Assembly: GCA_003223215.1 (NCBI GenBank)
Contig: QHYH01000186.1
Coordinates: 1 to 34,521 of the forward strand
Length of the DNA: 34,521 nucleotides
Source: Acidobacteriota bacterium
Lineage (GTDB): Bacteria > Acidobacteriota > Terriglobia > Acidiferrales > UBA7541
Direction of reading: 5' to 3'
Notes under the pieces: generated by a model
What the model was told of the DNA's origin: nothing
What the model saw: only the letters and a program-made list of their open reading frames with translations
Databases searched by the model: none
Program-made: the position numbers and the translations under genes
Shown: in pieces, positions 14,481 to 34,365 of the stretch
How positions within the stretch are numbered: position 1 is the stretch's first letter
Layout of the letters: the number at the start of each line of letters is the position of its first letter

Positions 14481-14534
14481 ACCGCAAGTCCTGGGCAGCT
14501 TTTCCGGAAGAGTGAGGAGTAGTGCAGAAAAATC

Positions 14535-17249: not shown

Positions 17250-17346
17250 CGGACCATTGCGACAAATCTCGAACGATTCCAACATGAGAACCGCTATGGA
17301 AAATGAAGATCCTCGTTGTCTGTCCTGTGGAGAACAGGAGGTAAAC

Positions 17347-19604: not shown

Positions 19605-19627
19605 AGCAGAAACGGAAGGAAGTCAGC

Positions 19628-20308: not shown

Positions 20309-20335
20309 AAGCGTGTAGGAAGTAAAGGCGGAACG

Positions 20336-20863: not shown

Positions 20864-21885
20864 TGATGGACCGGAATGTCACTCATGGAGCAGCGTTTCC
20901 CACGCGCCGCGGCAGAGGGAGGCCGCCGATTTTGACGGTGGGCCATTCTACGCGTGCGCGGCAGGAATTCATCGATTTACTCCAAGCAAATGGCGTGAAA
21001 CAGTTGATCGACGTCCGAACGATTCCACGCTCTCGCCACAATCCGCAGTTCAACCGCCCGGTATTGTCGCGCGCCTTAAGACGTAGGGGCATCGGTTATC
21101 GCCATATGGCCGGGCTCGGGGGTCTGCGACATTCCCGGCGGGACTCGATCAACGCAGGCTGGCGGAACAAGAGCTTCCGAGGGTATGCAGACTACATGCA
21201 GACGTCGAAGTTTCAAATTGCTCTGCACAAGCTGATCGCGCATGCCAGGCAGAAGCGAGTTGCATTGATGTGCGCTGAGGCGGTGCCTTGGCGCTGTCAT
21301 CGTTCGCTGATTGCTGACGCGCTCCTGATTCGGGGTTTTCCTGTCGAGGAAATTCAAGGCGCGACGCGACGACGCCCACATTCATTGACTCCGTGGATCC
21401 GTGTCAAAGGAACACGGATTACCTATCCGCTGGCCCCTGCCACGACCAAACGGCACGGACTTGCCGGAGAATCAGAGAGGAGAACGAAAATGATTCAGCT
21501 CAAGCGTGTTTACGACAAGGCAGCCCCGGAAGATGGCAAGCGTTTCCTCGTCGAGCGGCTTTGGCCCCGTGGAATTACGAAATCCGCGCTGGGCATTGAC
21601 GCCTGGCTGAAAGAGCTTGGACCAAGCACTTCTTTGCGGAAATGGTTCGGGCATGAACCGAAGAGATGGGAGGAATTCCGCCGTCGGTATTTCCACGAGC
21701 TGGAGAAAAAGGCCGAGGCTTGCAAACCAATTCAGAGAGCCGCCGAACGCGGAAGGGTAACGCTCGTCTACAGTTCACATGATACGGAACACAACAACGC
21801 GGTGGCCTTAAGAGAATTTCTGGAAGCGCAATTGAAGAAAAGCCGGACAGCAGAACGAATGCGGCACCTCAAGACTGCCGCTTGA
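20863..21885 (+). CDS. Double DUF488 protein (two DUF488 domains in one frame)
   Basis: 340 aa. Domain 1 (about residues 20-190) has LTVGHSTRARQEFIDLLQAN, QLIDVRTIPRSRHNPQFN and VALMCAEAVPWRCHRSLIAD. Domain 2 (from Met210) has LKRVYDKAAPEDGKRFLVER, LWPRGITKSALGIDAWLKEL and VTLVYSSHDTEHNNAVALRE, the YeaO-like branch. DUF488 proteins are of unknown function; the Cys-x6-Cys-His-Arg motif suggests a metal or thiol site. The internal Met210 (21490) is preceded by a good AGAGGAG site, so the second domain may also be made alone. The first ATG at 20863 overlaps the AhpD-like stop codon. The linker has no stop codon, unlike the common two-gene form. Confidence 0.8.
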   Translation: MMDRNVTHGAAFPTRRGRGRPPILTVGHSTRARQEFIDLLQANGVKQLIDVRTIPRSRHNPQFNRPVLSRALRRRGIGYRHMAGLGGLRHSRRDSINAGWRNKSFRGYADYMQTSKFQIALHKLIAHARQKRVALMCAEAVPWRCHRSLIADALLIRGFPVEEIQGATRRRPHSLTPWIRVKGTRITYPLAPATTKRHGLAGESERRTKMIQLKRVYDKAAPEDGKRFLVERLWPRGITKSALGIDAWLKELGPSTSLRKWFGHEPKRWEEFRRRYFHELEKKAEACKPIQRAAERGRVTLVYSSHDTEHNNAVALREFLEAQLKKSRTAERMRHLKTAA

Positions 21886-22002
21886 TGAGCTGCATCGCCA
21901 GGTCGTTTGTACTTGGCGAACGGGTGGGAGTTATTCAGAAGAGTTGTGCAGGCGTACGAAGTTAGTTATTGAAATTGGAGCTTCTCACCCTAGGAGAGAG
22001 AC

Positions 22003-22425
22003 ATGACCAACACAACGCAGCAACCACCTCATTCCGGGGCGATACGATCACCGGGCTCTCTCGGTAGTCCGACGCTCACCTTTGATCTGACGGCTGAGAT
22101 AAAAGGATTGCGGGAAGAGAATGCTTGGCAGGGCGGACGAAACTCCAAGACGCTTGTCAAGAACGAGGATTTCCGGATCGTGTTGACCGTGCTGCAATCC
22201 AATGCTCTTGTTCATGAACACAAGGCGACAGGCAGAATTTCCGTGCAGGCTCTTTCCGGCCACATTCAAATGCACGTCGAGGACAAGGTCTTCGATTTGC
22301 CCGCGGGGCATCTTCTAGCACTGGATCGCGCGCTTCCTCATGACGTGAAGGCGCTGGAGGACAGCGCCTTTCTGTTGACCATCGCTTGGCCGGAGGCGGG
22401 GCAAAGGCATTTGACCGAATATTAG
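22003..22425 (+). CDS. Cupin-domain protein
   Basis: 140 aa with one cupin barrel. VLQSNALVHEHKATGRISVQ holds motif 1 with its two His, and FDLPAGHLLALDRALPHDVK holds motif 2 with the third His. Such barrels bind a metal and serve as small-molecule sensors or enzymes. The N-terminal 45 residues are polar. The ATG at 22003 follows AGGAGAG. It stands alone between the double DUF488 gene (117 bp upstream) and the AlkA-like gene (105 bp downstream), all on the plus strand. The ligand is unknown. Confidence 0.78.
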   Translation: MTNTTQQPPHSGAIRSPGSLGSPTLTFDLTAEIKGLREENAWQGGRNSKTLVKNEDFRIVLTVLQSNALVHEHKATGRISVQALSGHIQMHVEDKVFDLPAGHLLALDRALPHDVKALEDSAFLLTIAWPEAGQRHLTEY

Positions 22426-22530
22426 ACTGCAACTCTGGCATTTCATGAGGAGTGAGGTCGAAATCTTTGCCGTTGAGGATGTACTTCATTTTAATCGCGT
22501 TTCTGGCAGTGAGTAGGGTGATGGTGTCTT

Positions 22531-23562
22531 ATGGCGTGGGCAGACACGAAGGACGAAGGAATGCCGCCGAATGCGGTTGGTAACCGTTCGCACGATTCAA
22601 ACACACGCGGACCTTTCGTGGAACGTCGGCTGACGTTTGAGCTATCACCGATCGCTCCGTTCTGTTTGGAATTCGCCGTTTGGGGATTGCGGCGCCGTCC
22701 GCAGAATCAAGTGGATCGCTGGGATGGCACGACCTATCAACGCGTGATTTCCATCCGTGGGCGACCTGCGGAAGTCCGTGTCAGCGAGCTAGGATCCCGC
22801 GAAGCTCCGCGTTTGGAAGTGAACGTGATCGGGGAGCGGGTTCATGCGGGAGCCGAGGCCGAAGTCAGGGCCTTGTTAACTCCCTTGCTTGGTCTGGAAG
22901 TGCACTTGAAGCCTTTTTATCGAATGGCGTCGCGCGAACCGAAACTTCGAGAACTGGCCGAGAGATATCGAGGCCTGAAACCAGGTAGATTTCCGACTGT
23001 CTTCGAGACTTTGGCAAACGCGTTCGCGTGCCAGCAATTCACAATTGCCGCCGGGCTTCAGTTGTTAAACCAGCTCGTACGAAGAGGAAGTGTTGGCATC
23101 AAGACGCAAGCAGGGATGGTGTTCGGGTTTCCGGAACCGTCAGACCTATTGCGTGTTTCACCGCGCGCGTTCCGGAGTCTTGGGTTCAGCGGCCAGAAAA
23201 CGAAGGCTTTCCGCGAGTTGAGCAGGAAACTTGTGGCCGAGCCTCTGGCCTTGGATACCTTGACCAATCGCAAGAATGAAGATGTGATCAATTTGCTGCT
23301 TGAATTGCGAGGTGTCGGGCGGTGGACGGCGGAGTACGTATTGTTGCGAGGGCTGGGGCGGCTGGATGTCTTTCCAGGGGATGACGTCGGTGCACGGAAT
23401 CGTCTGGCCAAGTGGCTACATCGTTCCGAGCCGATGGACTACGCAAGCGTGCGACGAACCGTGGACCGTTGGCAGCCCTATGCTGGATTCATCTATTTTC
23501 ACATGTTGATGGAATCGTTGACGGCGACCGGCAAACTCCGTGTTGGACGAACGTCTGCTTGA
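22531..23562 (+). CDS. DNA-3-methyladenine glycosylase II-like (AlkA/HhH-GPD)
   Basis: 343 aa. The N-terminal part (about 1-120) resembles the AlkA N-terminal domain (RRLTFELSPIAPFCLEFAVW, then NVIGERVHAGAEAEVRALL). The HhH-GPD part contains FETLANAFACQQFTIAAGLQ, then LLELRGVGRWTAEYVLLRGL, the helix-hairpin-helix, and DVFPGDDVGARN with the likely catalytic Asp285. The enzyme excises alkylated bases to start base-excision repair. The chosen ATG at 22531 has a weak ribosome site; 22561 is an alternative. Downstream of 23562 only a small reading frame at 23733 precedes the next gene. Alkylation repair fits a stress region. Confidence 0.85.
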   Translation: MAWADTKDEGMPPNAVGNRSHDSNTRGPFVERRLTFELSPIAPFCLEFAVWGLRRRPQNQVDRWDGTTYQRVISIRGRPAEVRVSELGSREAPRLEVNVIGERVHAGAEAEVRALLTPLLGLEVHLKPFYRMASREPKLRELAERYRGLKPGRFPTVFETLANAFACQQFTIAAGLQLLNQLVRRGSVGIKTQAGMVFGFPEPSDLLRVSPRAFRSLGFSGQKTKAFRELSRKLVAEPLALDTLTNRKNEDVINLLLELRGVGRWTAEYVLLRGLGRLDVFPGDDVGARNRLAKWLHRSEPMDYASVRRTVDRWQPYAGFIYFHMLMESLTATGKLRVGRTSA

Positions 23563-23732
23563 GCGTGTCGAGGGTCGGTGTCGGCCGGAGACGACGAGTT
23601 CCCTCCTCCAGTGACATGCGTAATGCCGGCCGGGACATGCGACCCATTGAGTACTCATGGCAAGCGGCGGAGTATGGTCTCGAACTCTAGAAAACTTCAC
23701 GGAATCTCGACCGGAGCAGAGAGGAGAGGGCC

Positions 23733-23852
23733 ATGTCAATGACTCTGATTTTCACTGGTAAGTGGAACAGGTGGTACCGCGTCCTGCGGCACGGCCATGG
23801 ATTCGGACTGTTTGATTCTGTGCGCTATGGGCTGTGGCTGGCGCGTGGCTGA
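23733..23852 (+). CDS. Small 39-aa protein ending in GLFDSVRYGLWLARG
   Basis: An ATG at 23733 follows a strong GAGGAGAGG site and opens MSMTLIFTGKWNRWYRVLRH, then GHGFGLFDSVRYGLWLARG, stopping at 23852. It is rich in Trp, Arg, Gly and His. It lies 107 bp ahead of a universal stress protein gene on the same strand. I do not recognise a named family, but the ribosome site and aromatic/basic make-up suggest a real small protein, perhaps membrane- or nucleic-acid-associated. The rest of 23563-23959 shows no other gene. Confidence 0.55.
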   Translation: MSMTLIFTGKWNRWYRVLRHGHGFGLFDSVRYGLWLARG

Positions 23853-23959
23853 GCGTGAGGCGCTTGCCATGACTCGAATACAAACCGCGAACGGACCGTC
23901 GGATTTGCGACCGCATTCGAATCCGATCTTTCCGAGTTGGCGAGACGAGAGGCAATCCG

Positions 23960-24463
23960 ATGGTAAATACGAGACTCCTTGTCGTCCATGATGATTCGGT
24001 CGCGTCGAGACGGGCGGTCAAGTACGTAGGCAAATTTGTGGGAAAGCGAAGGGCGTTTCGCATTTGTCTGGTTCATGTTCTACCGCCATTACCGCCGGAA
24101 CTCCTGGAACACGGCGGCTCTGAGGACCCTGCGAAGGAGGCACAGCTGGAGGCTGAGCTAAAGGTTGGACAGCATCGCTGGATTTCGGCCGCCAAGAAAG
24201 CCTCCCAGAAAGGCTTGCATGAAGATCGCGTAGTCCTGCGGAAAGCGGGAATTTCAGCGAGAACGGTGAAAGCCTCATTCTGTGAACCGGGAGAAGGCAG
24301 AGGTGCGGCTGATGCGATTCTGCACATGGCCCGGGGACGACGTTGTCGTACGGTCGTTGTCGGCCGACAGTCGGTTTCCTGGTTTCACGAGTTATTCAGC
24401 CACGATTTGTCGGAAGAACTCCTTCGCCGTGGCAAAGGGTTCTGTGTTTGGGCCGTTGAATGA
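23960..24463 (+). CDS. Universal stress protein-like, degenerate ATP site
   Basis: 167 aa. The N-terminus MVNTRLLVVHDDSVASRRAV and the second strand CLVHVLPPLPPELLEHG fit a Usp domain. The C-terminal part reads RTVVVGRQSVSWFHELFSHD, then LSEELLRRGKGFCVWAVE, where the usual G-x2-G-x9-G(S/T) signature is lost. An insertion around residues 40-75 (charged, EDPAKEAQLEAELKVGQ) is longer than in the other copies here. It probably does not bind ATP in the standard way. It is followed after 80 bp by the second AhpD-like gene. The start at 23960 has a GAGAGG site 9 nt upstream. Confidence 0.75.
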   Translation: MVNTRLLVVHDDSVASRRAVKYVGKFVGKRRAFRICLVHVLPPLPPELLEHGGSEDPAKEAQLEAELKVGQHRWISAAKKASQKGLHEDRVVLRKAGISARTVKASFCEPGEGRGAADAILHMARGRRCRTVVVGRQSVSWFHELFSHDLSEELLRRGKGFCVWAVE

Positions 24464-24543
24464 CCCACGGCCTGCTCCGAACAGCGAACGTTGGGAAACG
24501 TGGTCTTCGTTGGAAATTTAGAAGAGCCGAAGGAGAAAACAGC

Positions 24544-24990
24544 ATGTCAGAGTCAATGTATCCGCCAGCATCGCTGGATCTCGCTCGCAAGCGTCGGGAC
24601 CTCGCACCCCTCATCCGGGACGCCTTCCACGCGTTCAGCCAGCTCGTCTTCGCCGATGGTGCTCTGCCAGCCAAGACAAAGCAACTGATCGCAGTCGCGG
24701 CTGCCCACATCACGCAGTGTCCCTATTGCATCCAGAGTCATACCAAAGCGGCGCTAAAGCACGGAGCAAACCCAAAGGAAATCATGGAGGCGATCTGGGT
24801 CGCCGCCGAGATGCGAGCCGGTGGTTCCTACGCGCATTCGGCAATATCGCTTACCATACCACGATCAACGAGGAGCAGCAACGCCACGAATCCTGAGGCA
24901 GTTGCGTGGGCCGCGTGGATTTATGTCTTGAATCAAACGCAGACTCAGGAGCGATCAATGTTGGATTCCAACTCTGCGAAGGCCAAGTGA
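24544..24990 (+). CDS. AhpD/carboxymuconolactone decarboxylase-like protein with frameshifted C-terminus
   Basis: 148 aa as read. Residues 1-100 are a good AhpD-like domain: FADGALPAKTKQLIAVAAAH, ITQCPYCIQSHTKAALKHGA with Cys59, Cys62 and His66, then EIMEAIWVAAEMRAGGSYAH. The usual end is found in another frame as YHTTINEEQQRHES, stopping at 24894-24896, so one base is missing near 24847-24855. The present frame instead runs on through 45 unusual residues to 24990. The catalytic thiols are intact, so the protein could still fold. The ATG at 24544 follows GGAG. The ECF sigma gene starts 26 bp after the present stop codon. This is the third frame break in the window. Confidence 0.78.
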   Translation: MSESMYPPASLDLARKRRDLAPLIRDAFHAFSQLVFADGALPAKTKQLIAVAAAHITQCPYCIQSHTKAALKHGANPKEIMEAIWVAAEMRAGGSYAHSAISLTIPRSTRSSNATNPEAVAWAAWIYVLNQTQTQERSMLDSNSAKAK

Positions 24991-25016
24991 ATCGGAATTG
25001 ATTCGGAGGTTATGGT

Positions 25017-25832
25017 ATGGGCTTATTGCAAACAACGATTTCTGAAGCTCAACGATGGCCCGCTTCGGGCGCGCAGGTGCGGGGAAGCGTGGTGAGTCAG
25101 CGCGCACGAGGTAGGACGGACTTGCCGCCCAAGGTATCGGCACGCTCGGGCAAGGCGATTGATTCGAGCCCGGCAGCCGAAGAATGGCGGCTCATTCAAC
25201 GCGCACTCGCAGGAGATCCCGATGCGCTTTCGCCAGTCTTCATTCGCCACAGCTCCAAACTCTTTCGCGCCGCATTCTCGTTGTTGCGCAACAAGGAAGA
25301 TGCAGAGGACGCGCTGCAGGAGGGTCTGATCAACGCATACATCCATCTGAATTCGTTCCAAAGGCGATCGCTGTTTTCCACGTGGCTGACTCGCATTGTC
25401 ATAAACGCCGCGTTAATGGCTCTCCGTCGCAAGCGTGCTCGTCCGGAAACATCTCTGGATGAGGGTCAGGACAGTGAATCGGACGACTGGCCAGCCTGGG
25501 TCGTCGACTTCCGCCCGAACCCCGAGCAAGCGTGCGCCGCGAGGGAAGCCAAGCAGATCGTCGAAAGCCATGTCGAGCAACTTTCATCGTGCCTCCGTTC
25601 GGCATTCCGGCTCCGCGAAATGGAGGGCCTCTCGACGAAAGGAGTGCGAAAAGTACTTGGTCTTACGGAAAACGTCGTTAAGTCACGAGTGTTCCGGGCA
25701 CGGGGAGAATTGACGAAGTCGCTGCGACAATCGTTCCGGATAATTTCTCAAGATGTCGAAGATATTTCGTCAAGGAAGACAATGTTGGCCGTTGCTGTGC
25801 CATCTCTCAACTCAAACTCTCCCCGGCCATGA
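25017..25832 (+). CDS. ECF-family RNA polymerase sigma factor, second copy
   Basis: 271 aa. A polar N-terminal stretch of about 55 residues precedes region 2: LIQRALAGDPDALSPVFIRH, then FRAAFSLLRNKEDAEDALQE, LINAYIHLNSFQRRSLFSTW, and LTRIVINAALMALRRKRARP. Region 4 follows near residue 190 (VEQLSSCLRSAFRLREMEGL, then KGVRKVLGLTENVVKSRVFR). Region 2 is closer to consensus than in the sigma factor at 2253-2987. The ATG at 25017 has a GGAGG site. No anti-sigma gene follows; the next gene, heme O synthase, is convergent. A weak inverted repeat (25837-25842 and 25876-25881) sits in the 51-bp gap. Confidence 0.85.
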   Translation: MGLLQTTISEAQRWPASGAQVRGSVVSQRARGRTDLPPKVSARSGKAIDSSPAAEEWRLIQRALAGDPDALSPVFIRHSSKLFRAAFSLLRNKEDAEDALQEGLINAYIHLNSFQRRSLFSTWLTRIVINAALMALRRKRARPETSLDEGQDSESDDWPAWVVDFRPNPEQACAAREAKQIVESHVEQLSSCLRSAFRLREMEGLSTKGVRKVLGLTENVVKSRVFRARGELTKSLRQSFRIISQDVEDISSRKTMLAVAVPSLNSNSPRP

Positions 25833-25883
25833 AATCTGTCCGGCATACCAGTTCTGCGACTCTTCGCGACACATACGGACAAA

Positions 25884-26816
25884 CTAAGTCTTAGCACACA
25901 TCATCAGAGCAAAAATCAGTGGAAGATAAACGATAGAGGCGAAAAGCAGGCGGCGCGCCGTCGTGTTCGTTCTGCAAAAGGCCAAACGGGCAGCGTAGTA
26001 GAAAAAGCCCGAGCTCAGCACAAAAACTCCGACAAAGTAAACTAACCCGGCCCTATGCAGCAGCGCCGGACCGAGGCTGACGGGGATGAGGGCGAGCGAA
26101 AACACGATGGTTTGCCACGCCATGAAGCGCCCCTGCCTCTCACCTAGGGGTAATGTCCGATACCCCGCACGCGCGTAGTCCTCGCGATACATCCAGGCAA
26201 TGGCCATGAAATGTGGAAACTGCCAAAGAAAGAGAATGGCGTAGAGAACCCACGCCTCTGCGCTTAGGCTTCCGCTCGCCCCGGCCCACCCGATCAACGG
26301 GGGCGCGGCGCCCGGCAATGCTCCGACCAGCGTGCACAACGGAGTCTTCCTCTTCAGCGGCGTGTACAGGAGCAAATAGGTGCTCAATGTCAGCAAGGCC
26401 AGCAAGCTGGCAAGGAAATTTACAAGAACAGCCAAGTAAAGACCGCCAGCCACCGAAAGCACCACGCCGAACCACAGCGCGCGCGAGGGATTGATCCTCC
26501 CGGCGGGCAGCGGACGCCGTGCCGTTCGCCGCATCTGAGAATCGAAACACCTTTCAAAATACTGATTCAGTGTTCCCGTGCCACTTGCGACGAGCATCGT
26601 GCCCACAATGGTGTTGAAGAGCAGCAGAATCCGCCAGTGGGAAGCAGGTGAGGCCAGGTAGAAGCCGGCGAAGGTTGTGATAAGAATCAGGAAATTCACC
26701 TCGGGCTTGGTCAGCGTCCAATAATCGGCCAGCACAACCGTCCAGCGTGAGAAGCCACCTGCTGCCAAGCGAGGAGCCATCATATTTGCCTCAGCCAATC
26801 GAGTTCCGCGCGTCAT
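25884..26816 (-). CDS. ctaB: Protoheme IX farnesyltransferase (heme O synthase)
   Basis: 310 aa with about nine membrane segments. The prenyltransferase motif NQYFERCFDSQMRRTARRPL is present (N-x3-[DE]-x3-D-x2-M-x-R-T), and a second aspartate-containing loop, MYREDYARAGYRTLP, follows FPHFMAIAW. The enzyme farnesylates heme B to heme O, the first step to heme A, needed for the caa3-type oxidase encoded at 14535-17079. There is no ctaA (heme A synthase) in the window. Start 26816 is the longest; MMAPRL (26783) with a GAGG site is an alternative. It lies 111 bp after the M50 protease gene on the same strand and may be read from promoter copy C. Confidence 0.9.
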   Translation of the reverse strand: MTRGTRLAEANMMAPRLAAGGFSRWTVVLADYWTLTKPEVNFLILITTFAGFYLASPASHWRILLLFNTIVGTMLVASGTGTLNQYFERCFDSQMRRTARRPLPAGRINPSRALWFGVVLSVAGGLYLAVLVNFLASLLALLTLSTYLLLYTPLKRKTPLCTLVGALPGAAPPLIGWAGASGSLSAEAWVLYAILFLWQFPHFMAIAWMYREDYARAGYRTLPLGERQGRFMAWQTIVFSLALIPVSLGPALLHRAGLVYFVGVFVLSSGFFYYAARLAFCRTNTTARRLLFASIVYLPLIFALMMCAKT

Positions 26817-26927
26817 GTTATGGCCTCGCTAAGAGTCGAGATTTTCTCCGCAGGAGCTCTGCTCGGTGCGGCGACATGCCGGTAAATGGCCGCCACTATG
26901 AACTACCTCAGTGCGAAGAACGTCTTC

Positions 26928-28046
26928 CTATGCCTTCAGGGCCTGCAAGATGCCGAGATAATGAATGAGATCGTCTCGCGACAACGTCCCCAATAGCTTC
27001 TTATCCGTCATCACGGGGAGTTGGTCGATGCCACTTCTGCCCATCTTGTCGAACGCCGTCCATAACTCGGCATCAGGCCTGATCCATTGCATTTGTTCCG
27101 CCGGTATCACGGCTTGTAGAGCAGTCGTGGTCGGCCATTGGGAGCGCGGCACGTTTTTGATAGCAGGTAGAGTGAGCAGGCCGACGACCTCAGAATCACT
27201 TATGATCACAAAGCTCGTGCGCCCGCTGGTCAAGATGTGGTCGTGCACTACGCTTTCCAGCGTCGTGTCGGCAGGGATGGGGGTGTAATCGCGGCCCATT
27301 GCCTCTGATACCTTGTGGCCGGCCAACAATCCCTGCATTACCTGCTGCTGAACTTGCGCTGCTGCGGCGCTTTCGAGGAACCAGCCGATGAAGGCTATCC
27401 ACAGACCGTTAAAAAAGTTTCCCCGCAAAGCGAGCCATACACCGAAAGCTATGAAAAGGAAACCGACGAAACGTCCGGTGTCGGCCGCAATCAGAGTTGC
27501 TCTCCGGAAATTGCGAGAAACACCCCACACAATCGCGCGAAAAACCCGTCCGCCGTCCAACGGGAATCCGGGAATGAGATTAAAGAGGGCAAGCATGGCA
27601 TTGATGAGAGCCAGGTATTTGGCGGCAGCCAGTAGCGGACTGATAGGCGTTAGCAAAGGCTGCATGATGAGAAACAGTGCCGCCAGGGCAAAGCTGACAA
27701 TGGGCCCCGCAACCGCGATCCAGAACTCAGCGCTAGCGCTTGGAGGTTCTCCCGCTATTTGCGAGACCCCTCCGAAAATAAACAAAGTGATGCGGGGCAC
27801 TTGAACCTTGTAGCGCATGGCCACAAGCGAATGCCCAAGCTCGTGGGTTAACACGCTCGCAAAGAACAGGACCGCGGTGAGTGAACCCACGAACCAATAC
27901 TCAGCGGTGTTCCAGTTCTTGAACTCACTCGGGAAGTAGCTGACCGCCAACATCCACGTGAGCAAGCCAAACACCAAGAACCAGGAATAGTCGAGGTCGA
28001 CAGTGATACCGAAGATTCGCCCCAACGGGATTGTATGGCGGAACAT
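26928..28046 (-). CDS. Site-2 protease (M50) with two C-terminal CBS domains
   Basis: 372 aa. Membrane zinc protease with HELGH at residues 68-72 (SVLTHELGHSLVAMRYKV) and the third zinc ligand in NLIPGFPLDGGRVFRA (Asp164). Four to six membrane segments precede two CBS domains (about 240-300, KVSEAMGRDYTPIPADTTLE, and 305-370, ending in GTLSRDDLIHYLG). CBS pairs usually bind adenosyl ligands and switch activity. Enzymes of this type cut anti-sigma factors or membrane proteins. Mycobacterial Rv2625c, a DosR-regulon member, has the same make-up. The start at 28046 has an AGGTGAAG site that overlaps the stop codon of a leader frame. Confidence 0.88.
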   Translation of the reverse strand: MFRHTIPLGRIFGITVDLDYSWFLVFGLLTWMLAVSYFPSEFKNWNTAEYWFVGSLTAVLFFASVLTHELGHSLVAMRYKVQVPRITLFIFGGVSQIAGEPPSASAEFWIAVAGPIVSFALAALFLIMQPLLTPISPLLAAAKYLALINAMLALFNLIPGFPLDGGRVFRAIVWGVSRNFRRATLIAADTGRFVGFLFIAFGVWLALRGNFFNGLWIAFIGWFLESAAAAQVQQQVMQGLLAGHKVSEAMGRDYTPIPADTTLESVVHDHILTSGRTSFVIISDSEVVGLLTLPAIKNVPRSQWPTTTALQAVIPAEQMQWIRPDAELWTAFDKMGRSGIDQLPVMTDKKLLGTLSRDDLIHYLGILQALKA

Positions 28047-28049
28047 TCT

Positions 28050-28127
28050 TCACCTGCCTTCAGTTTCCGGGCGCAATGCGCGGCCTCGTTCCGTTAGATA
28101 ATAAAATCGCTCGCATGACGGTTTCAT
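28050..28127 (-). CDS. Short leader reading frame behind promoter copy C (25 aa)
   Basis: ATG at 28127, exactly 40 nt from the first base of the copy C -10 box, opens MKPSCERFYYLTERGRALRP and stops with the TGA at 28050-28052, 3 nt before the M50 protease ATG and inside its AGGTGAAG ribosome site. Tight coupling with the protease start is the notable feature. The peptide differs from the MR-x-A-M set. Confidence 0.4.
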   Translation of the reverse strand: MKPSCERFYYLTERGRALRPETEGR

Positions 28128-28161
28128 TCTCGAACTCGGCTGAGTTTGTGACAATGGGTCG

Positions 28162-28189
28162 TTTATACTCTCTGAAGGAACAGCTGTAA
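28162..28189 (-). promoter_or_regulatory. Shared promoter cassette, copy C (drives the M50 protease)
   Basis: On the minus strand TTACAG (28189-28184), a 16-bp spacer ending AGAGAG, and TATAAA (28167-28162) are followed by CGACCCATTGTCACAAA. The ACGACCCATTGTCA stretch is shared exactly with copy A. Its distance to the protease ATG is 116 bp, filled by the leader. Confidence 0.76.
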
Positions 28190-28210
28190 GCGCCAAGGAA
28201 CAGAAGAAAT

Positions 28211-28438
28211 TCACGCGAAGGCTAATTGGGAAAGGAGCTGCCAATTCTGTGTCCGTGGAACGGGTAGTCCAGATGGTGGCAGTGTTATTGCGGTTCGTTG
28301 GGGAACGAGGTAGGAGGGATGATTCGCAACGAACGCTCCGAGAACGAGGAAGGCGAGAAGCGAGACAATTACAATGTTCCACCTCCGAAAGCGTCTCTTG
28401 GTAGTCGCACCATCTCCAGCATAGCGTAAGAAACACAT
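28211..28438 (-). CDS. Possible small single-span membrane protein (75 aa)
   Basis: From the ATG at 28438 (AGGA 10 nt upstream) the frame reads MCFLRYAGDGATTKRRFRRW, then a hydrophobic segment NIVIVSLLAFLVLGAFVA, and a proline-rich tail. The positively charged stretch before the hydrophobic segment fits an inside-out anchor. It lies 50 bp after the DUF2945 stop codon on the same strand and ends ahead of promoter copy C. I do not recognise a family. The frame is open further upstream to 28474. Confidence 0.4.
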   Translation of the reverse strand: MCFLRYAGDGATTKRRFRRWNIVIVSLLAFLVLGAFVANHPSYLVPQRTAITLPPSGLPVPRTQNWQLLSQLAFA

Positions 28439-28488
28439 GTACTTCGATTTCCTAGTCGGAGGATTCCGAGACACCGTAAGGATTTTCG

Positions 28489-28743
28489 CTATCGCTTCAT
28501 TTTTCTTCTCTTGGATTTCTTCTTTACCTGAGCCTGGATGTGTCTCAGTGCTTTCCCTTTGTGGATCGCCACATGATCGGTCTTGTCACTTTGGATGAGG
28601 TATTGAGGTTCGTCTCTAGAAGCGTGGTGCACATAGCCTTTGATCCGGATATCAGAAACAACTTTCTTCATAATGACCCCGCGAACCCTCCCAGCTTCCG
28701 AATTCCATTCAACGTGGTCGCCGCGCATAAATATTTTGGGCAT
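28489..28743 (-). CDS. DUF2945 (TUDOR-like, hypervirulence-associated) small protein
   Basis: 84 aa from MPKIFMRGDHVEWNSEAGRV; an ATG 15 nt upstream (28758) is possible. The DUF2945 pattern is clear: GDHVEWNSEAGRVRGVIMKK, then IKGYVHHASRDEPQYLIQSD, then KTDHVAIHKGKALRHI. The fold is a small TUDOR-like beta barrel. The C-terminus is very basic (QAQVKKKSKRRKMKR), so DNA or RNA binding is plausible. Family members are widespread in soil bacteria and their function is not established. It precedes a possible small membrane protein and lies downstream of the cupredoxin gene on the same strand after 148 bp. Confidence 0.8.
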   Translation of the reverse strand: MPKIFMRGDHVEWNSEAGRVRGVIMKKVVSDIRIKGYVHHASRDEPQYLIQSDKTDHVAIHKGKALRHIQAQVKKKSKRRKMKR

Positions 28744-28891
28744 CGCTTTTGTCTCCACAGCAAGAAATCACACGCAACGATTTCTTGTTTGAGGAAGTTA
28801 CCGTTACCAGTCTTGTACCAGATTCATGCACATCAGATTGAGGAGCACTGTTTCTTGCCAGGGTCCGGTTTTCTATGGGTTGATGAGGAAC

Positions 28892-29281
28892 TCACCGCAC
28901 GATTAACTCAGCTTTCATATTCGGGTGCAAAGTACAGTCATAGAGGTAGGTTCCCCTTTTCGTGACCACATATTTCCAGGAGCTGCCAACAGGAAGAATG
29001 CCGGAATCGAATTTCTTCGGTCTTGTCGACGTTGCGGTGTGAGGGACGATGTCGTCGTTCTTCCATTCAACCGTATCGCCAACCTTTACAGTGAGCACGG
29101 CGGGTTGAAACTTAAGTTCACGGATGACGATCGTGTGCGTTTGCGGACCTTTAGGAACAGCGGCCAGCACGAATCCGCCCGGAGGTCCCTGCGTGCCCAG
29201 CGAGCACGAAACCAGTAACAACAAGGCTGTCGCTACTAATGTTGAGGCTACCGATCGCATGCTCGAGTGGGGCGCGTTCAT
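28892..29281 (-). CDS. Plastocyanin-like cupredoxin lipoprotein
   Basis: 129 aa from MNAPHSSMRSVASTLVATAL; the ATG at 29281 follows AAGGAG. A lipobox (LLLLVSCS, Cys26) suggests a lipid anchor after export. The cupredoxin domain has TIVIRELKFQPAVLTVKVGD, then VEWKNDDIVPHTATS with His81, then TYLYDCTLHPNMKAELIV with Cys116, His119 and Met122, a complete type 1 copper site. It could carry electrons in the periplasm, for example to the cytochrome oxidase. It lies 31 bp after the DUF4142 gene, so both are likely transcribed from promoter copy D. Confidence 0.86.
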   Translation of the reverse strand: MNAPHSSMRSVASTLVATALLLLVSCSLGTQGPPGGFVLAAVPKGPQTHTIVIRELKFQPAVLTVKVGDTVEWKNDDIVPHTATSTRPKKFDSGILPVGSSWKYVVTKRGTYLYDCTLHPNMKAELIVR

Positions 29282-29312
29282 TGCTATATCTCCTTGGTTG
29301 TAACGCCGGCTC

Positions 29313-29879
29313 TTACTTGGGGTTCTTTGCATCATGTGCAGCGGTGGGGTCAACGGTGGCTTGCACGTTTCGTGCATGCTCAAGATGGCCGAGAAAAAGA
29401 GTCTGAGCGCCCTGGAGAGCGGCCTTAAGTTCCCCGTTCTGTGCGTTCGGAATCAAGACACCCGCGATGGCATCCGTAACTTGCTTGTGATAGGCCACCT
29501 CGTTGTCGATGTAGAACTTGTCAAAGGCCTTGCCGCGCAGGCTCTTCAGCTTTGCCGTAACCTCCACGGACTTCGCTTTGAGACTGTTGCTCGTGTCATT
29601 TTCGACTGGGGTTAGGTGAAGCTTGCCCGCCAGTTCAATGACGGACTTCTGGACCGCCCCGTGATCGGTTACCATCTGTTGCGCAAAACCCCGAACTTCC
29701 TTGTTCTTCGACTTGGTCAATGCGAGTTTGCCGTAGTCGATGTCAATCTGATTTGCAGCCAGAACGATCGCGCCGATATTCGCGTCGCTCGGAGGCTGTT
29801 GTGCGACACACTCGGAAGCGAAACCAAGCGAACCGAGTAAAGCAACCGCGGACAGAACCAAAACGCTTGAACTCTTCAT
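29313..29879 (-). CDS. DUF4142 exported protein
   Basis: 188 aa. A signal peptide (MKSSSVLVLSAVALLGSLGF, ending near ASECVAQQ) precedes a long helical domain of the ferritin-like DUF4142 family: VLAANQIDIDYGKLALTKSK, NKEVRGFAQQMVTDHGAVQK and YIDNEVAYHKQVTDAIAG, then LFLGHLEHARNVQA. Members are periplasmic, frequent in soil bacteria, and of unknown function; a four-helix bundle with His and Glu may bind metal. The ATG at 29879 follows AAAGGAG. A 22-codon leader behind promoter copy D ends 14 bp upstream. The cupredoxin gene follows 31 bp downstream. Confidence 0.88.
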   Translation of the reverse strand: MKSSSVLVLSAVALLGSLGFASECVAQQPPSDANIGAIVLAANQIDIDYGKLALTKSKNKEVRGFAQQMVTDHGAVQKSVIELAGKLHLTPVENDTSNSLKAKSVEVTAKLKSLRGKAFDKFYIDNEVAYHKQVTDAIAGVLIPNAQNGELKAALQGAQTLFLGHLEHARNVQATVDPTAAHDAKNPK

Positions 29880-29893
29880 TTGTGTAACTCCTT

Positions 29894-29962
29894 TTATAAT
29901 TTTCTGTGGTACCCCTGCATGGCCTGGGAACAACGGTGATCCTTATTCATGGCGATCCTCAT
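29894..29962 (-). CDS. Short leader reading frame behind promoter copy D (22 aa)
   Basis: ATG at 29962, exactly 40 nt from the first base of the copy D -10 box, opens MRIAMNKDHRCSQ and stops at 29894. The opening resembles the leader behind copy E (MRTAMENEDPRC): both have MR-x-A-M and then Arg-Cys. There is no clear ribosome site. It ends 14 nt before the DUF4142 ATG and is in another frame. Confidence 0.38.
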   Translation of the reverse strand: MRIAMNKDHRCSQAMQGYHRKL

Positions 29963-29996
29963 CCTGGAGGTGTTTCGCACTTGTCACAATGGTTCG

Positions 29997-30024
29997 TTCA
30001 TACCGGGGAAAGAGACGCTTGTAA
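29997..30024 (-). promoter_or_regulatory. Shared promoter cassette, copy D (drives DUF4142/cupredoxin)
   Basis: On the minus strand TTACAA (30024-30019), a 16-bp spacer ending CCCCGG, and TATGAA (30002-29997) are followed by CGAACCATTGTGACAAG. The region 30025-30320 upstream of it shows only a 15-bp palindrome (30263-30277) and no gene. Confidence 0.75.
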
Positions 30025-30320
30025 CAGATGCCAAAAGGTATTCGAACAAGGGCTCGATGCCGACTACGCGCATTCAACCGCCAGTCAGACGACTTTGGAG
30101 ATCCTCTCCACTAGAAAAGTCTCCAGCGGACAATTGGATACGTCTGCTCGATCTTTCTTGTCTCGGGGGAACCGGCCCTGCCGCCGGCTAATGCACAGCG
30201 CGAAGCAGTTATTCATCATATATCTGGTCCTAGACGGATAAGACAGTCTTGAACTGGATTGGCTCAATTCAATTGAGTGCTGCTTCTGCCTCTCGAATCG
30301 ATGGAAAACAGCTTCATCGC

Positions 30321-30758
30321 TTATTTTCGCGGCGGGATACCGAACACTACATAGCACGGTGAATGTTCGGCCACGTGTTTAGCCGTCGTGCCAAATACTA
30401 TCTCGCCTAGCGTACGTCCGTGGTGATAGCCGAGGACGGCTAGATCGCTTTTCTTTTCCTTTAATTCATCAAGCAGCGCGTAGCTGGCGGAGTGTGCCCG
30501 TAAAACTAGCGTCCTTGCCTTCAAATGGCTGCGGCGGGCCACGCTCTCGCCGGCGCGCAAGATTTTCTGCGCTGCTGCTTCCAGATCCGGTACTTCCGCG
30601 TCGAGAGCCGTGTTGTCGGGAAGTTCTATTACATGAACCAGAATGAGTGATGCTCCCCGCGAGCCCAGGCGGCTAGCCAACGTGGTTAGTTCCACAGCGT
30701 TTTCTAGGGTTTTCAAACCTACTAAGATCCGCTTAGGTTTCCTCATCTGTTGAGCCAT
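30321..30758 (-). CDS. Universal stress protein (UspA family)
   Basis: 145 aa from MAQQMRKPKRILVGLKTLEN, chosen for its AGGAGGAAGG site; the frame is open to 30854, but that would overlap promoter copy F. The Usp domain continues with SLILVHVIELPDNTALDAEV and ends SDLAVLGYHHGRTLGEIVFG, then TTAKHVAEHSPCYVVFGIPP. The glycine spacing G-x3-G-x8-G-T is close to, but not exactly, the usual G-x2-G-x9-G(S/T). The N-terminal nucleotide loop has Gly-Leu-Lys in place of the usual Asp. It stands alone, diverging from the GH15 gene, and is the fourth Usp-like protein in the window. Confidence 0.85.
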   Translation of the reverse strand: MAQQMRKPKRILVGLKTLENAVELTTLASRLGSRGASLILVHVIELPDNTALDAEVPDLEAAAQKILRAGESVARRSHLKARTLVLRAHSASYALLDELKEKKSDLAVLGYHHGRTLGEIVFGTTAKHVAEHSPCYVVFGIPPRK

Positions 30759-30818
30759 ACCTTCCTCCTCGTTTTGAGGTTGGATCATCCTGTCATGTAA
30801 AACTGGATCACGTCGATG

Positions 30819-30846
30819 TAACAGGCGTTTCTGTCGAAGGTATAAA
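30819..30846 (+). promoter_or_regulatory. Shared promoter cassette, copy F (drives GH15 enzyme)
   Basis: TAACAG (30819-30824), a 16-bp spacer ending CGAAGG, and TATAAA (30841-30846), followed by GAGACCATTGTTAGG. The leader ATG at 30881 is exactly 40 nt from the first base of the -10 box and has an AAGGAGG ribosome site, the strongest of the set. Confidence 0.74.
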
Positions 30847-30880
30847 GAGACCATTGTTAGGAACGCAAGGAGGTTTCAGC

Positions 30881-31048
30881 ATGAGAGTCGCAATGAAAGC
30901 GATGATGTCGCTGTCATCTGTGCTGGCGGGCCGTAGGGAGAGAACATGCGTGCTGGGAAGAAGGTCCCGACTTGAAAGTGGAAGAGTCGTTACAAGTGAC
31001 CGTTCCGGGAGCGCTCGAGGGGCATTCGAGCCTCAGAAGTCAATCTAG
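30881..31048 (+). CDS. Short leader reading frame behind promoter copy F (55 aa)
   Basis: ATG at 30881 follows a near-perfect AAGGAGG at 7-nt spacing and opens MRVAMKAMMSLSSVLAGRRE, stopping at 31048. It overlaps the start of the GH15 gene in another frame. Of all the leaders this one is most likely to be translated. The remaining sequence (Arg/Ser-rich) is not recognised. Confidence 0.45.
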   Translation: MRVAMKAMMSLSSVLAGRRERTCVLGRRSRLESGRVVTSDRSGSARGAFEPQKSI

Positions 31049-33431
31049 GCAGAAAGTCAGAGCTTTCGGGCGACCGGGCATCGAGCCCCGATGGACTCAC
31101 GGCGACAAAGACGGCGTGGGGACAGCGTATGCAGCTGCGAGCCGAATTTGGTTCACCTTGTGGAATGGCATCATCACTGAAGTCTATTATCCGACAGTGG
31201 ATCACCCGCAGATCCGAGACCTGCAGTGTCTCATTACGGATGGAAAGACCTTTTTCCATGAAGAAAAGCGCGACCTGAAATCCATCTGCGAGCGTCTTTC
31301 AGATAATTCACTTGGCTACCGCTACACCAACACCGATTCCGAGAGCCGGTACTCCATCATTAAGGAAATCATCACGAATCCGCATCTTGCCTGCATTCTC
31401 CAGCACGTTAAACTCGTCGGTGATGAAGCGTTTATCTCGAAGTTGCACCTCTACATGCTTTGTGCGCCTCATCTTCAAGTCGGCGGATGGAGTAACAACG
31501 GCTATGTGATCCAGGTAGCGGACCGGAAGATCCTGATGGCAGAGAAGGCAGGGGTATGGTTGGCACTCGGGGGCACACTCCAATTTTCTCGAGCTTCCTG
31601 TGGCTACGTTGGTCGGAGTGACGGCTGGACCGATCTCGCCGGTAACTTTCAAATGGACTGGGAGTTCGATCAGGCCTCTGACGGAAACATTGCCCTGATG
31701 GGAGAAGTTGACCTCGGTGGCAAGCGCGAGTTCACCATGGGACTGGCGTTCGGTGACACGGAGCACTGTGCGATAACAACCCTTTTTCAGGCGCTTGGCA
31801 TTCCGTTCAAAGAACACCTGAAGCGATACACGGAACAATGGGACCGCACCTCCGCGCACCGGCTTCCTTTGGAAAAGTTTTCGAGTGACAACGGCAACCT
31901 ATACCACAGCAGCTTCAGTTTGCTTCTGAGTCATGAAGACAAGTCTTATCCGGGTGCCTTGATTGCTTCTCTCTCGATTCCTTGGGGAGAAGCAAAGGGT
32001 GATGCGGACAACGGCGGATATCACCTTGTGTGGACCCGTGATCTGGTGGGCAGCGCCTCTGCCATGCTCGCTGCCGGCGATCGCATCACACCTTTGCGCT
32101 CGCTGATTTATTTGGTGGTATCACAGCAGGAAGACGGAGGCTTTGCACAGAATTTCTGGATTGATGGCGGGCCATACTGGCGAGGAATCCAACTTGACGA
32201 AGTGGCTCTTCCGATTCTTTTGGCCTGGCAGCTCCAAAGGGAGAATGCTCTTCAAGATTTTGACCCGTACCCGATGATCCTGAAGGCGGCTGCTTATTTA
32301 ATTCGTCATGGACCTGTCACTGAGCAGGAACGCTGGGAAGAAGCGAGTGGCTACTCTCCTTCGACGCTCGCTTCCAACATTGCTGCTCTGATTGGGGCGG
32401 CATGGTTTGCGCGTGAGCGAGGGGATGAGGCCGTTGCAACAATGTTAGAGGAGTACGCTGATTTTCTGGAATGTCATATCGAAGCTTGGACCGTCACAAC
32501 AGAGGGCGCGCTCGTCCCTGGGGTTCAGCGGCACTACATACGAATTCTGCCCGAGGATGTCGGCAACGCCAATCCCTTGGAAGACCCAAACTCGAAAGTT
32601 CTGCAGATCAAGAATCATCCGGACGGGTCGCAAGATTCATTCCCAGCAAGAGATATCGTTGATGCCGGCTTTCTTCATCTCGTGCGTTATGGGATAAGAC
32701 GGCCCGATGATCCAGTGATCGTGGACTCTTTGAAGATCATCGATGCGGTATTGAAGGTGAACACTCCGGTCGGGCCGGTTTGGCGTCGTTACAATCACGA
32801 TGGTTACGGCCAGCGAGAAGACGGCGGCCCGTACGTGGGGTGGGGCAAAGGTCGCGCGTGGCCTCTTCTGACGGGAGAACGGGGGCATTTCGAACTCGCT
32901 GCAGGACGAGACGTGAAACCGTTCATACGAGCGATTGAAGGTTTCGCCTCGAGAACAGGTTTATTACCCGAGCAAGTATGGGACGAACCGGACCGAGCGG
33001 GCGTTTATATGTTCCTTGGTCGACCGACGGGCTCGGCCATGCCTCTGATGTGGGCTCACGCGGAGTACATCAAGCTACTCAGGTCCGTGTCTGATACTCG
33101 CGTTTTCGACATGATCCCTGAAGTTGCAGAGCGCTACCTGGGAGATCGCAAGACTCGTCAATTGTTCGAGATCTGGAAGCCCAATCGACAGGCTCGCACC
33201 GTCAAGCGAGGCTACGCTCTTCGCATTCAGGTTCCAGTTCCCTTCCGCCTTCACTGGTCGGCCAACGAATGGCAGTCTGTGGAAGATAACCCCTCATCGA
33301 CCCCAGTTCTCGGATTTCATTTTGTGGATATTCCAATCTCTGCTGCGCAACAAGCGCCGATTCGCTTTACTTTTTATTGGGCGGTCGAGAATCGCTGGGA
33401 AGGTCGAGATTACATGGTAGCAATTGAGTGA
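30972..33431 (+). CDS. GH15 glucoamylase/glucodextranase-type glycoside hydrolase
   Basis: 819 aa from a TTG at 30972; the true start could be later, since the family-like sequence begins at FGRPGIEPRWTHGDKDGVGT. The N-terminal beta-sandwich domain (about 40-300) contains RIWFTLWNGIITEVYYPTVD. The catalytic (alpha/alpha)6 barrel follows, with YHLVWTRDLVGSASAMLAAG, WKGKGRAWPLL-like GWGKGRAWPLLTGERGHFEL and LLPEQVWDEPDRAG. Glu636 and Glu667 are the likely acid/base pair. Such enzymes release glucose from the ends of alpha-glucans such as glycogen or dextrin. There is no signal peptide, so it is probably cytoplasmic. It lies behind promoter copy F and overlaps its leader frame. Confidence 0.88.
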   Translation: MKVEESLQVTVPGALEGHSSLRSQSRQKVRAFGRPGIEPRWTHGDKDGVGTAYAAASRIWFTLWNGIITEVYYPTVDHPQIRDLQCLITDGKTFFHEEKRDLKSICERLSDNSLGYRYTNTDSESRYSIIKEIITNPHLACILQHVKLVGDEAFISKLHLYMLCAPHLQVGGWSNNGYVIQVADRKILMAEKAGVWLALGGTLQFSRASCGYVGRSDGWTDLAGNFQMDWEFDQASDGNIALMGEVDLGGKREFTMGLAFGDTEHCAITTLFQALGIPFKEHLKRYTEQWDRTSAHRLPLEKFSSDNGNLYHSSFSLLLSHEDKSYPGALIASLSIPWGEAKGDADNGGYHLVWTRDLVGSASAMLAAGDRITPLRSLIYLVVSQQEDGGFAQNFWIDGGPYWRGIQLDEVALPILLAWQLQRENALQDFDPYPMILKAAAYLIRHGPVTEQERWEEASGYSPSTLASNIAALIGAAWFARERGDEAVATMLEEYADFLECHIEAWTVTTEGALVPGVQRHYIRILPEDVGNANPLEDPNSKVLQIKNHPDGSQDSFPARDIVDAGFLHLVRYGIRRPDDPVIVDSLKIIDAVLKVNTPVGPVWRRYNHDGYGQREDGGPYVGWGKGRAWPLLTGERGHFELAAGRDVKPFIRAIEGFASRTGLLPEQVWDEPDRAGVYMFLGRPTGSAMPLMWAHAEYIKLLRSVSDTRVFDMIPEVAERYLGDRKTRQLFEIWKPNRQARTVKRGYALRIQVPVPFRLHWSANEWQSVEDNPSSTPVLGFHFVDIPISAAQQAPIRFTFYWAVENRWEGRDYMVAIE

Positions 33432-33540
33432 AACTCGAATTGGGGTTACGGAAAAAGACAGTAATGGGAGTCCATCAAAGAGCTTGGCATCAGCATGAAA
33501 CAGGTGGATTCCGAACCATGACCCAGCCTAGGATTGTCAC

Positions 33541-33924
33541 ATGGAACGAGAAAAGTTCGTCAAACTCGTCGAAGAGGCCTTGGATACGTTGCCTATCAGA
33601 TTTCACAAACGAATGCAGAACGTCTCCGTTCTAGTCGAGAACATACCTCCAGAGCAGCGCTCACAAAGAGGCTCGCGGAACTCGGGGATCGCAGATGTCG
33701 GCGACTTGGACAATTTAGTGCTTGGCGTTTTCGAGGGAGTACCCGCAACTCAGAAAAGCGTGTTTGAGGTGCCTACCGGCCCTGACCGCATCGTGCTCTA
33801 TCAGAAGAACATCGAGGCCGTGTGCTCCAATGAAGACGAAATCAGGCGGGAAATTCGTCTGACAGTAATCCACGAACTAGGTCATTATTTCGGGATGACC
33901 GAAGCTCAACTCGAAGGGATCTAA
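33541..33924 (+). CDS. Zincin-like metallopeptidase (DUF1025/PF06262 type)
   Basis: 127 aa. A short alpha/beta zincin with HELGHYFGMTEAQLEGI at the C-terminus (His111, Glu112, His115), the typical ending of the small family. The N-terminal helix (MEREKFVKLVEEALDTLPIR) and NVSVLVENIPPEQR complete it, and FEVPTGPDRIVLYQKNIEAV precedes the active-site helix. It is probably cytoplasmic and its substrate is unknown. The ATG at 33541 has AGGA 7 nt upstream. It lies 109 bp after the GH15 stop codon and may be on the same transcript. The 222 bp beyond its stop codon show no gene. Confidence 0.84.
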   Translation: MEREKFVKLVEEALDTLPIRFHKRMQNVSVLVENIPPEQRSQRGSRNSGIADVGDLDNLVLGVFEGVPATQKSVFEVPTGPDRIVLYQKNIEAVCSNEDEIRREIRLTVIHELGHYFGMTEAQLEGI

Positions 33925-34146
33925 TTCCTAAAAACGGATCCTAACCATCTGTAACGAAATCTATTCGATCGCATCTTGCGTCTGTTGATGCCGTGAATTT
34001 GGATCCGTGCACGAGAAGTTTGATGGTTTTCTTGCGCTGGGCAGAATCTCGATCACGAATTGCCTGCCTCGATTTGCCGAGGTTTGTTGAGTTTGGCTGG
34101 ACTCTACTTCGCCTCTTGCCCGCACTTGTGTTAGTATAAAACTCGC

Positions 34147-34278
34147 ATGAGCGCACCAATTCTTATTAGCGGTTTATTGGCGGTTTTGGCAGGGACAGCT
34201 GCTACCGTATGCACCGCAAGCGAACAGTGCGCTGTATGCGAATCTTGCAAAGGCTTTATTTGCAAGGTTTTAGGCTAA
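34147..34278 (+). CDS. Possible Cys-rich exported peptide (43 aa)
   Basis: The frame opens MSAPILISGLLAVLAGTAAT, a plausible signal or anchor, then VCTASEQCAVCESCKGFICK with five Cys, and stops at 34278. No Shine-Dalgarno precedes it; instead TATAAA ends at 34140, six bases before the ATG, so a leaderless message is possible. It lies 18 bp before the tRNA-Asp remnant. The spacing Cys-x2-Cys-x2-Cys is unlike random sequence, but the small size makes the call weak. Confidence 0.35.
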   Translation: MSAPILISGLLAVLAGTAATVCTASEQCAVCESCKGFICKVLG

Positions 34279-34296
34279 GTTGTTGATTCCACGGCT

Positions 34297-34365
34297 GGGG
34301 ACGTAGTTCAGTTGGTTAGAACGCTGCCCTGTCGTTGGTTAGAATCCTACACTGTCACGGCACGG
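34297..34365 (+). tRNA. tRNA-Asp(GTC) remnant: 5' half with a tandem 23-bp duplication, 3' half lost
   Basis: From 34297 the sequence gives the 5' acceptor strand GGGGACG, D-arm GTTC-AGTTGGTTA-GAAC and anticodon stem CTGCC with anticodon GTC, ending at 34333. The expected ACGGCAG does not follow; instead the 23-bp stretch 34311-34333 is repeated with five to seven mismatches at 34334-34356, followed by ACGGCACGG. No T-arm or CCA end follows. It cannot make a tRNA as it stands. Confidence 0.65.

Follow-up and report, generated by a model that had tools for sequence, protein, structure and literature searches.

What does a broken tRNA-Asp gene at the edge of a contig record about the DNA beside it? 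The window analyzed here is contig QHYH01000186.1 (34,521 nt) of the Acidobacteriota bacterium assembly GCA_003223215.1, i.e., the whole of contig C166 in an 8.8-Mb genome of 279 contigs (hereafter G000). A preliminary description made from its letters alone had reported a truncated tRNA-Asp with an internal tandem duplication at 34297-34365, interpreted as a scar of integration or excision through which the adjoining stress region may have arrived or been rearranged. Comparison within the genus (36 genomes, G000 included) strongly supports the view that the broken tRNA-Asp is a real scar of site-specific integration: the same tRNA was observed as an empty site, at native-side junctions, in regenerated form and with islands that carry an integrase. 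Very probably, the fragment is a tRNA-Asp 5′ half displaced by integration into the anticodon loop. Islands in this group of soil bacteria repeatedly cut tRNA-Asp at the anticodon and leave behind a trail of displaced front halves.

The description of the fragment itself was largely correct. Positions 34297-34333 read as the first 37 bases of tRNA-Asp(GTC), and a diverged copy of the D-arm to anticodon part follows, in which 34334-34356 are identical to 34311-34333 at 19 of 23 bases and which runs on as ACGGC to 34361, into the 3′ side of the anticodon stem. The 3′ half is indeed missing: neither a T-arm nor an acceptor 3′ strand follows the second copy in the window, and ARAGORN called no tRNA on the window and thus found no complete tRNA fold. 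The Rfam tRNA model scored the fragment at 19.6 bits, below the gathering score of 29, and a scan of the window detected no Rfam family at gathering score. What had to be revised was the internal tandem duplication, the second copy being the left end of a neighboring module; at the native locus of three relatives, this copy begins where the native tRNA ends. Since the contig ends 156 bp past 34365, the sequence farther downstream is unreadable in G000.

The fragment ends a unit of ~265 bp (34099-34361) that recurs in this Acidobacteria genus and is larger than first reported: at the loci compared, conservation starts at ~34099-34108 and ends at ~34361. A 121-base query gave 11 further matches in G000 at E ≤ 5e-4 (best 3e-30), far beyond chance, including C45, C50, four on C256 and one on C116; one of the weak matches, on C70, is an ordinary tRNA-Val. 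At E ≤ 1e-6, the 86-base core had matches in 26 of the 36 genomes, in many cases solely via the intact tRNA-Asp. An exact pattern for the second part returned 21 stretches in a scan of GTDB species genomes, which may leave out records of the window's own genome; all are titled Acidobacteria metagenome-assembled genomes (MAGs), 18 of the 21 are labelled gp2, and several come from one MAG. Of 87 places tabulated by a script rule, 61 are displaced halves from 13 of the 36 genomes, 8 are intact tRNA-Asp genes with the element leader, 13 are intact genes with other upstream DNA (two of them, in G011:C121 and G017:C81, representing a different tRNA-Asp variant), 3 are tRNA-Val and 2 are cut by a contig end; these are the places in the fetched stretches, some displaced ones being short or degenerate, and do not amount to a complete census. 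Ten contigs carry at least two places (displaced, intact or cut), and all 28 places on them lie on one strand per contig, with neighboring copies ~0.5 to 29 kb apart.

The tRNA-Val/tRNA-Asp locus was observed in different states in the relatives. At the empty site (e.g., in G010, G022 and G051), tRNA-Val(tac) is followed ~20 bases on by an intact tRNA-Asp. At the left junction, seen in G020, G013:C24 and G048, tRNA-Val is followed by a tRNA-Asp 5′ half cut at the anticodon, the second copy and foreign DNA, the tRNA-Val having been called by ARAGORN in G020 and recognized from its visible 3′ end in the other two. At the right junction, found in eight genomes (G011, G012, G018, G023, G024, G042, G043 and G050), the leader of the unit precedes an intact tRNA-Asp; G050 holds both an empty copy and a leader-preceded one. 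Moreover, a displaced fragment lies upstream of a regenerated tRNA in the same orientation in G049:C14, G012:C256 and G018:C166.

The most complete case is the 141-kb contig of G049, whose left flank and tRNA-Val are syntenic with seven relatives (G004, G005, G007, G010, G022, G050 and G051) in which tRNA-Val and tRNA-Asp are adjacent; this comparison covers the G049 locus and its relatives, not the window's own locus, whose regenerated gene lies off the contig. In G049, tRNA-Val is followed by the native half at 13947 (already diverged), a 1.5-kb module, the leader with a 5′ half at 12459, an 8.8-kb module and finally the intact tRNA-Asp at 3687. The native half and the intact gene are thus ~10.25 kb apart; in G051, tRNA-Val and tRNA-Asp stand side by side. 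Both modules share the left end ACTCGAMCGAATC..., and only the second carries an integrase. The main open reading frame (ORF) of the first is a leucine carboxyl methyltransferase-like gene; placed between two halves, this module has att-like ends on both sides and no recombination genes, as expected of a cis-mobilizable element. Together with the locus states of the other relatives, the G049 arrangement indicates that islands insert into the anticodon loop from the 5′ side, the less common one, and supply a new leader and 5′ half.

The DNA after the junctions recurs in the manner of modules. The bodies following 50 left ends fell by a script criterion into 8 shared families (33 members, some joined via weak likeness alone) and 17 singletons; the bodies in G000:C50 and G024:C142 are 98% identical across the full 6 kb compared. 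In 17 pairs sharing a left end, selected by hand out of 64 because their post-junction DNA was alike over a long stretch or to a high degree, identity amounted to 88-98% in the 250 bp after the junction and to 37-75% in the 250 bp before it, with a shuffled control averaging 58 and reaching at most 63; the higher pre-junction identities belong mostly to pairs in which both members carry the conserved leader. Likeness therefore switches at the anticodon junction. A short, sharp-edged unit dispersed in many copies might also suggest a transposable repeat of the miniature inverted-repeat transposable element (MITE) kind, derived from tRNA-Asp, inserting at random and surrounded by DNA outside any module. 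We consider this very unlikely given the shared downstream and differing upstream DNA of the 17 chosen pairs, the position of halves at the native tRNA-Val/tRNA-Asp locus in three genomes and of the leader before intact tRNA-Asp in eight, and the single strand per contig kept by 28 of 28 places.

Integrases were found where integration into a tRNA gene from its 5′ side would place them. In G049, G017 and G043, a codirectional tyrosine integrase (Phage_integrase) stops 30-31 bp before tRNA-Asp or its half (30 bp ahead of the tRNA in the second G049 module), and the R, HxxR, H and Y motifs, which we take to be the catalytic residues, are conserved in all three. Among 24 distinct homologues obtained from searches of the genus (36 genomes) and the class (299 genomes), 16 end at most ~70 bp away from, or within, a tRNA (Leu, Gln, Asn, Met, Thr or Asp) or Asp half of the same direction, which indicates that this integrase clade is usually located on the 5′ side of tRNA genes. 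Two are convergent with a tRNA. For the remaining six, the DNA examined contains no tRNA beyond the gene; three of them are preceded by a codirectional tRNA-Leu, and another has a divergent tRNA-Arg. In G000, with 87 integrase matches in the one genome, 9 of 17 integrase domains located within 700 bp of a tRNA are on its 5′ side (all codirectional) and 8 are on its 3′ side (all convergent). There is no PF00589 match on C166. Displaced tRNA-Asp 3′ fragments starting at CTGTCACGG occur on C268, C279, C143 and C69 of G000, and both sides therefore seem to share one anticodon loop. On C268, convergent integrases adjoin three of four 3′-fragment positions, i.e., the canonical 3′-side arrangement exists at tRNA-Asp too. 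Two side observations concern these enzymes: at L258 (G212:C386, ~2403-2479 when read in the direction of the integrase), the integrase frame enters a tRNA-Met and its stop codon is supplied by the tRNA sequence, and clusters of three neighboring tyrosine recombinases, resembling recombinase-in-trio elements, are present at G000:C234, C85, C21, C149, C265 and C191.

Based on these arrangements, we propose that the right end of an element consists of a leader with a promoter-like block and a complete tRNA-Asp 5′ half, and that crossover between this end and the chromosomal gene would take place in the loop CTGTCAC (7 nt), which the CTGCC/GGCAG stem encloses. The 5′ half of the element would thereby be joined to the native 3′ half, regenerating the tRNA, and the previous 5′ half would remain at the opposite (left) end. 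Further rounds of integration would stack modules 5′ of tRNA-Asp, with an old 5′ half bounding each. In 17 module intervals, 102 ORFs reach 110 aa or more; only 2 of them encode integrases, and there are 3 PIN proteins as well as efflux pumps; the scarcity of integrases makes it likely that modules lacking one are mobilized in trans, possibly by 5′-side tyrosine integrases like those carried by the G049, G017 and G043 elements. The locus states, the members with an integrase, the single strand of each array and the module recurrence are observed directly; we infer the chemistry of the crossover, the action of the leader as a promoter and the mobilization in trans.

The features of the unit are listed below; the leader alone gave 46 matches among the loci compared, many beginning at 34099-34109.

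Table 1. Features of the repeated unit and of the adjoining module start at the right edge of the window.
Feature	Position	Strand	Basis
Conserved leader (right end of integrative module): promoter-like block, tandem repeats, inverted repeats, then TAAGTTGTTGATTCC	34099..34296	+	46 leader matches; 30-copy alignment
Promoter-like -10 TAGTAT, with TGTGT before it, near the left conservation edge	34132..34137	+	Conserved in 30-copy alignment and A2
Conserved inverted repeat GCATGAGCGCAC ... GTGCGCTGTATGC around the tandem repeats	34145..34239	+	Near-invariant
Two tandem 10-mers TTATTAGCGG / TTATTGGCGG, proposed integrase arm-type sites	34163..34183	+	Paired change between copies
TAAGTTGTTGATTCC motif shortly ahead of the tRNA half	34276..34290	+	Similar motifs 3′ of integrase stops
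Displaced 5′ half of tRNA-Asp(GTC), GGGGACG...CCCTGTC	34297..34333	+	Ends in anticodon loop, crossover region CTGTC[AC]
Left end of next module, GTTGGTTAGAATCCTACACTGTCACGGC, diverged copy of D-arm to anticodon stem	34334..34361	+	Likeness drops upstream in 17 of 17 chosen pairs
Start of next module's body, stopped by contig end	34362..34521	+	Resembles G044:C130 from ~313, 81% over 48 bp

The leader opens with the promoter-like block TTCGCCTCT..GCA..CATCTGTGTTAGTAT, whose -10-like part is the putative promoter of the regenerated tRNA. Within a copy, the two tandem 10-mers match at 3.91 of 5 variable positions as compared to 3.07 after shuffling (0 of 10000 shuffles as high), in a test that used the 22 of 30 copies with both repeats readable and left the relatedness of copies uncontrolled. 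The inverted repeat around them may represent either DNA sites or an RNA stem. Motifs like TAAGTTGTTGATTCC come after the stop codon of the 5′-side integrases in G017, G049 and G043. Judging from these sequence features, we read the leader as a probable attP arm combined with a promoter for the regenerated tRNA. A second hairpin with a short T run lies just ahead of the tRNA half at 34241-34269, occurs in two sequence types among the copies and could be a terminator or a protein site. Inspection of the leader for coding by eye revealed an ATG at 34147 that opens a short frame in the window copy, broken in some others.

It could be argued that such a unit is instead a small structured or tRNA-like RNA gene with a function of its own, made up of promoter, leader RNA and tRNA-like 3′ part. 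The stretch 34144-34296 folds better than 200 of 200 shuffles (z -2.75), and its long stem is near-invariant: over 28 copies, 87.2% of the cells pair as compared to 86.3% when shuffled (0 of 500 shuffles as high), cells with a two-sided change number 24 against 11.0 (0 of 500), and the covariation score is 0.128 against 0.118 (6 of 500); 15 copies gave 2 pairs with a two-sided change. However, RNAalifold on the 28 copies kept 22 pairs, none with a two-sided change and with a covariation term near zero, pairs with a two-sided change were 5 as compared to 5.7 in shuffles and further pair types 36 as compared to 39.3. Moreover, related sequences exceed shuffles even without structure, as the tool itself warns, inverted and repeated DNA sites account for the same conservation, and the Rfam match to tRNA is sub-threshold only. 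Taken together, these results make an RNA gene a most unlikely account of the unit. Still less can be said for an origin without mobile DNA, in which a former tRNA-Asp gene was locally duplicated in tandem and decayed: the two copies do form direct repeats at a distance of 23 bp, and the copy at C256:17521 in G000 itself resembles a deletion between the repeats, but decay is disfavored because breaks at or near the anticodon are found in 13 genomes at many loci, with differing DNA next to them. That the copies are assembly chimeras of MAGs is hardly credible, for although several contigs, the window included, break off within a few hundred bases of a copy, contigs of greater length (141 kb in G049; also in G024 and G017) have the same structure in their interior, and several MAGs share it.

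Several observations weigh against displacement of the 5′ half by site-specific integration, or at least against its simplest form. The copy at G024:C20:4669 lies downstream of an intact tRNA, which simple 5′-side stacking does not predict, and left ends of different families are unlike in the bases that separate CTGCC from CACTGTCACGG, which implies a crossover point that varies. For the most part, the native-junction state and the regenerated state were observed in separate genomes, and a full insertion set against an empty site was seen in G049 only. In G000, the tRNA-Val on C33, with an upstream flank syntenic with G049, has no tRNA-Asp 5′ half after it. Furthermore, the standard tRNA-Asp of G000 is split between contigs: C256 ends inside the gene in CTGTCACG and the rest is probably on C268, which starts at GTCGCGAG; C69 ends with the same flank, and the C256-C268 join is thus uncertain. 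With the gene cut in this way, the array cannot be read through in G000. Finally, the tandem-repeat pattern, which finds 21 of 30 leaders, matched none of 59 integrase loci, some of them overlapping; no integrase was found with this leader beside it.

Among 50 tRNA places of G000 (150 of 328 candidates scored), the sole tRNA-Asp called by ARAGORN is a divergent one on C37. This second, divergent tRNA-Asp type is located at G000:C37:25712-25782, with similar genes in G011:C121, G017:C81 and G006:C113, and on C37 an integrase lies ~1.1 kb from it.

Regarding cargo, a two-gene set with a ParE-type toxin is common to G048 and G012, its first gene being also present in G024, with 92-99% identity between the genomes. 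The set stands directly after the module left end at L189:2878-3461, L142:18438-19021 and L132:1413-1682. G044:C130, the left end of which resembles the one after the window's copy, encodes a Fic-like protein just above the Pfam cut-off. PADLOC applied to the modules yielded 23 models with one matching member each.

Did the stress region arrive with the fragment? Whatever module stands to the left of the unit has its right end there, and its left end lies outside the window. The G+C content is lower in the last 6 kb (0.51-0.53) than before (0.54-0.57). The two nearest genes are patchily distributed in the genus: that for a GH15/glucodextranase-like protein was found in 7 of the 36 genomes at E ≤ 1e-60 and that for a zincin-like protein in 3, both counts including G000. 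Relatives that have these genes carry them on contigs other than those with tRNA-Asp or unit matches or, in G010, ~650 kb away. At E ≤ 1e-30, 33 of 36 genomes match DNA from 14100-34098; the matches fall chiefly on the cytochrome oxidase genes, a second set of which is present on C1 of G000, and otherwise on GH15 and short stretches. In a search that covered window positions 14100-34098 and scored at most 8 candidates per genome, no relative among the 36 genomes showed the stress region as a block. Likewise, the same fragment at the same place without the stress region was not found among the relatives, which carry the fragment beside other DNA. Overall, these observations fit accessory DNA, and we regard entry of the stress region by this integration route as a possibility short of probable.

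As a wider and tentative suggestion, which we would not yet call probable, gp2 Acidobacteria may hold a cassette-like system of gene capture with ~250-bp attachment units, trans-acting 5′-side integrases and tRNA-Asp as a two-sided hub. If so, the attachment unit would combine a promoter, paired arm-type sites and the tRNA-Asp 5′ half and would end each integrase-less module; modules would move in and out of the anticodon loop through trans-acting 5′-side tyrosine integrases, with 5′-side modules stacking under promoter swapping and classical islands on the 3′ side, and paired tandem-repeat changes would mark distinct integrase specificities. In any case, the 265-bp unit is a practical marker of module ends in large soil genomes, and the arrays offer junction series for testing module exchange, promoter replacement of an essential tRNA and mobilization without an own integrase.

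A literature search, with most subscription papers beyond its reach, returned no description of this arrangement in Acidobacteria. Integron cassettes likewise form one-orientation arrays of modules, each ended by a conserved site, with a toxin-antitoxin-like set and unknown genes among the cargo, whereas here copies lie up to ~29 kb apart and a tRNA gene serves as the target. For Candidatus Solibacter, many integrases and genomic islands close to tRNA genes have been reported (PMC3174227), with no mention of 5′ halves in the accessible text of that report. The ssrA islands of Dehalococcoides are closer in that tandem islands occupy one tRNA-like gene and, according to the accessible part of the report, a portion lacks an integration module and was proposed to be cis-mobilizable with accretion (PMC3146451); on the same partial account, those islands use a serine recombinase and ssrA 3′-end repeats, whereas tyrosine integrases and tRNA-Asp 5′ halves are found here. 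The pTN3-like integrases of archaea take the tRNA 5′ half, the recombinant tRNA being expressed from the integrase promoter, and the available text describes a regenerated tRNA that depends on element expression as seldom encountered in bacteria (PMC8371274). By contrast, the present case concerns a bacterial clade with leader-type modules lacking an adjacent integrase. In the Islander catalogue, as far as its accessible text goes, 159 of 3919 islands have a 5′ fragment and 4 are listed under 'Tandems >= 3' (PMC4383910). As there, a tyrosine-integrase island splits a tRNA gene at an attachment site that the same accessible text centers on the anticodon, with the regenerated gene at one end and the displaced 5′ fragment at the other; in contrast, here integrases make up 2 of 102 module ORFs, the leader contributes a promoter-like block of its own, and a large number of copies occur, stacked as well as dispersed. 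The arrangement thus belongs to the tRNA gene (tDNA) island kind, as its 5′-side, promoter-carrying and largely integrase-less array form: islands that replace the tRNA 5′ half, and hence the promoter, make up 4% of the tDNA islands in the accessible catalogue text (159 of 3919; PMC4383910) and are common here.
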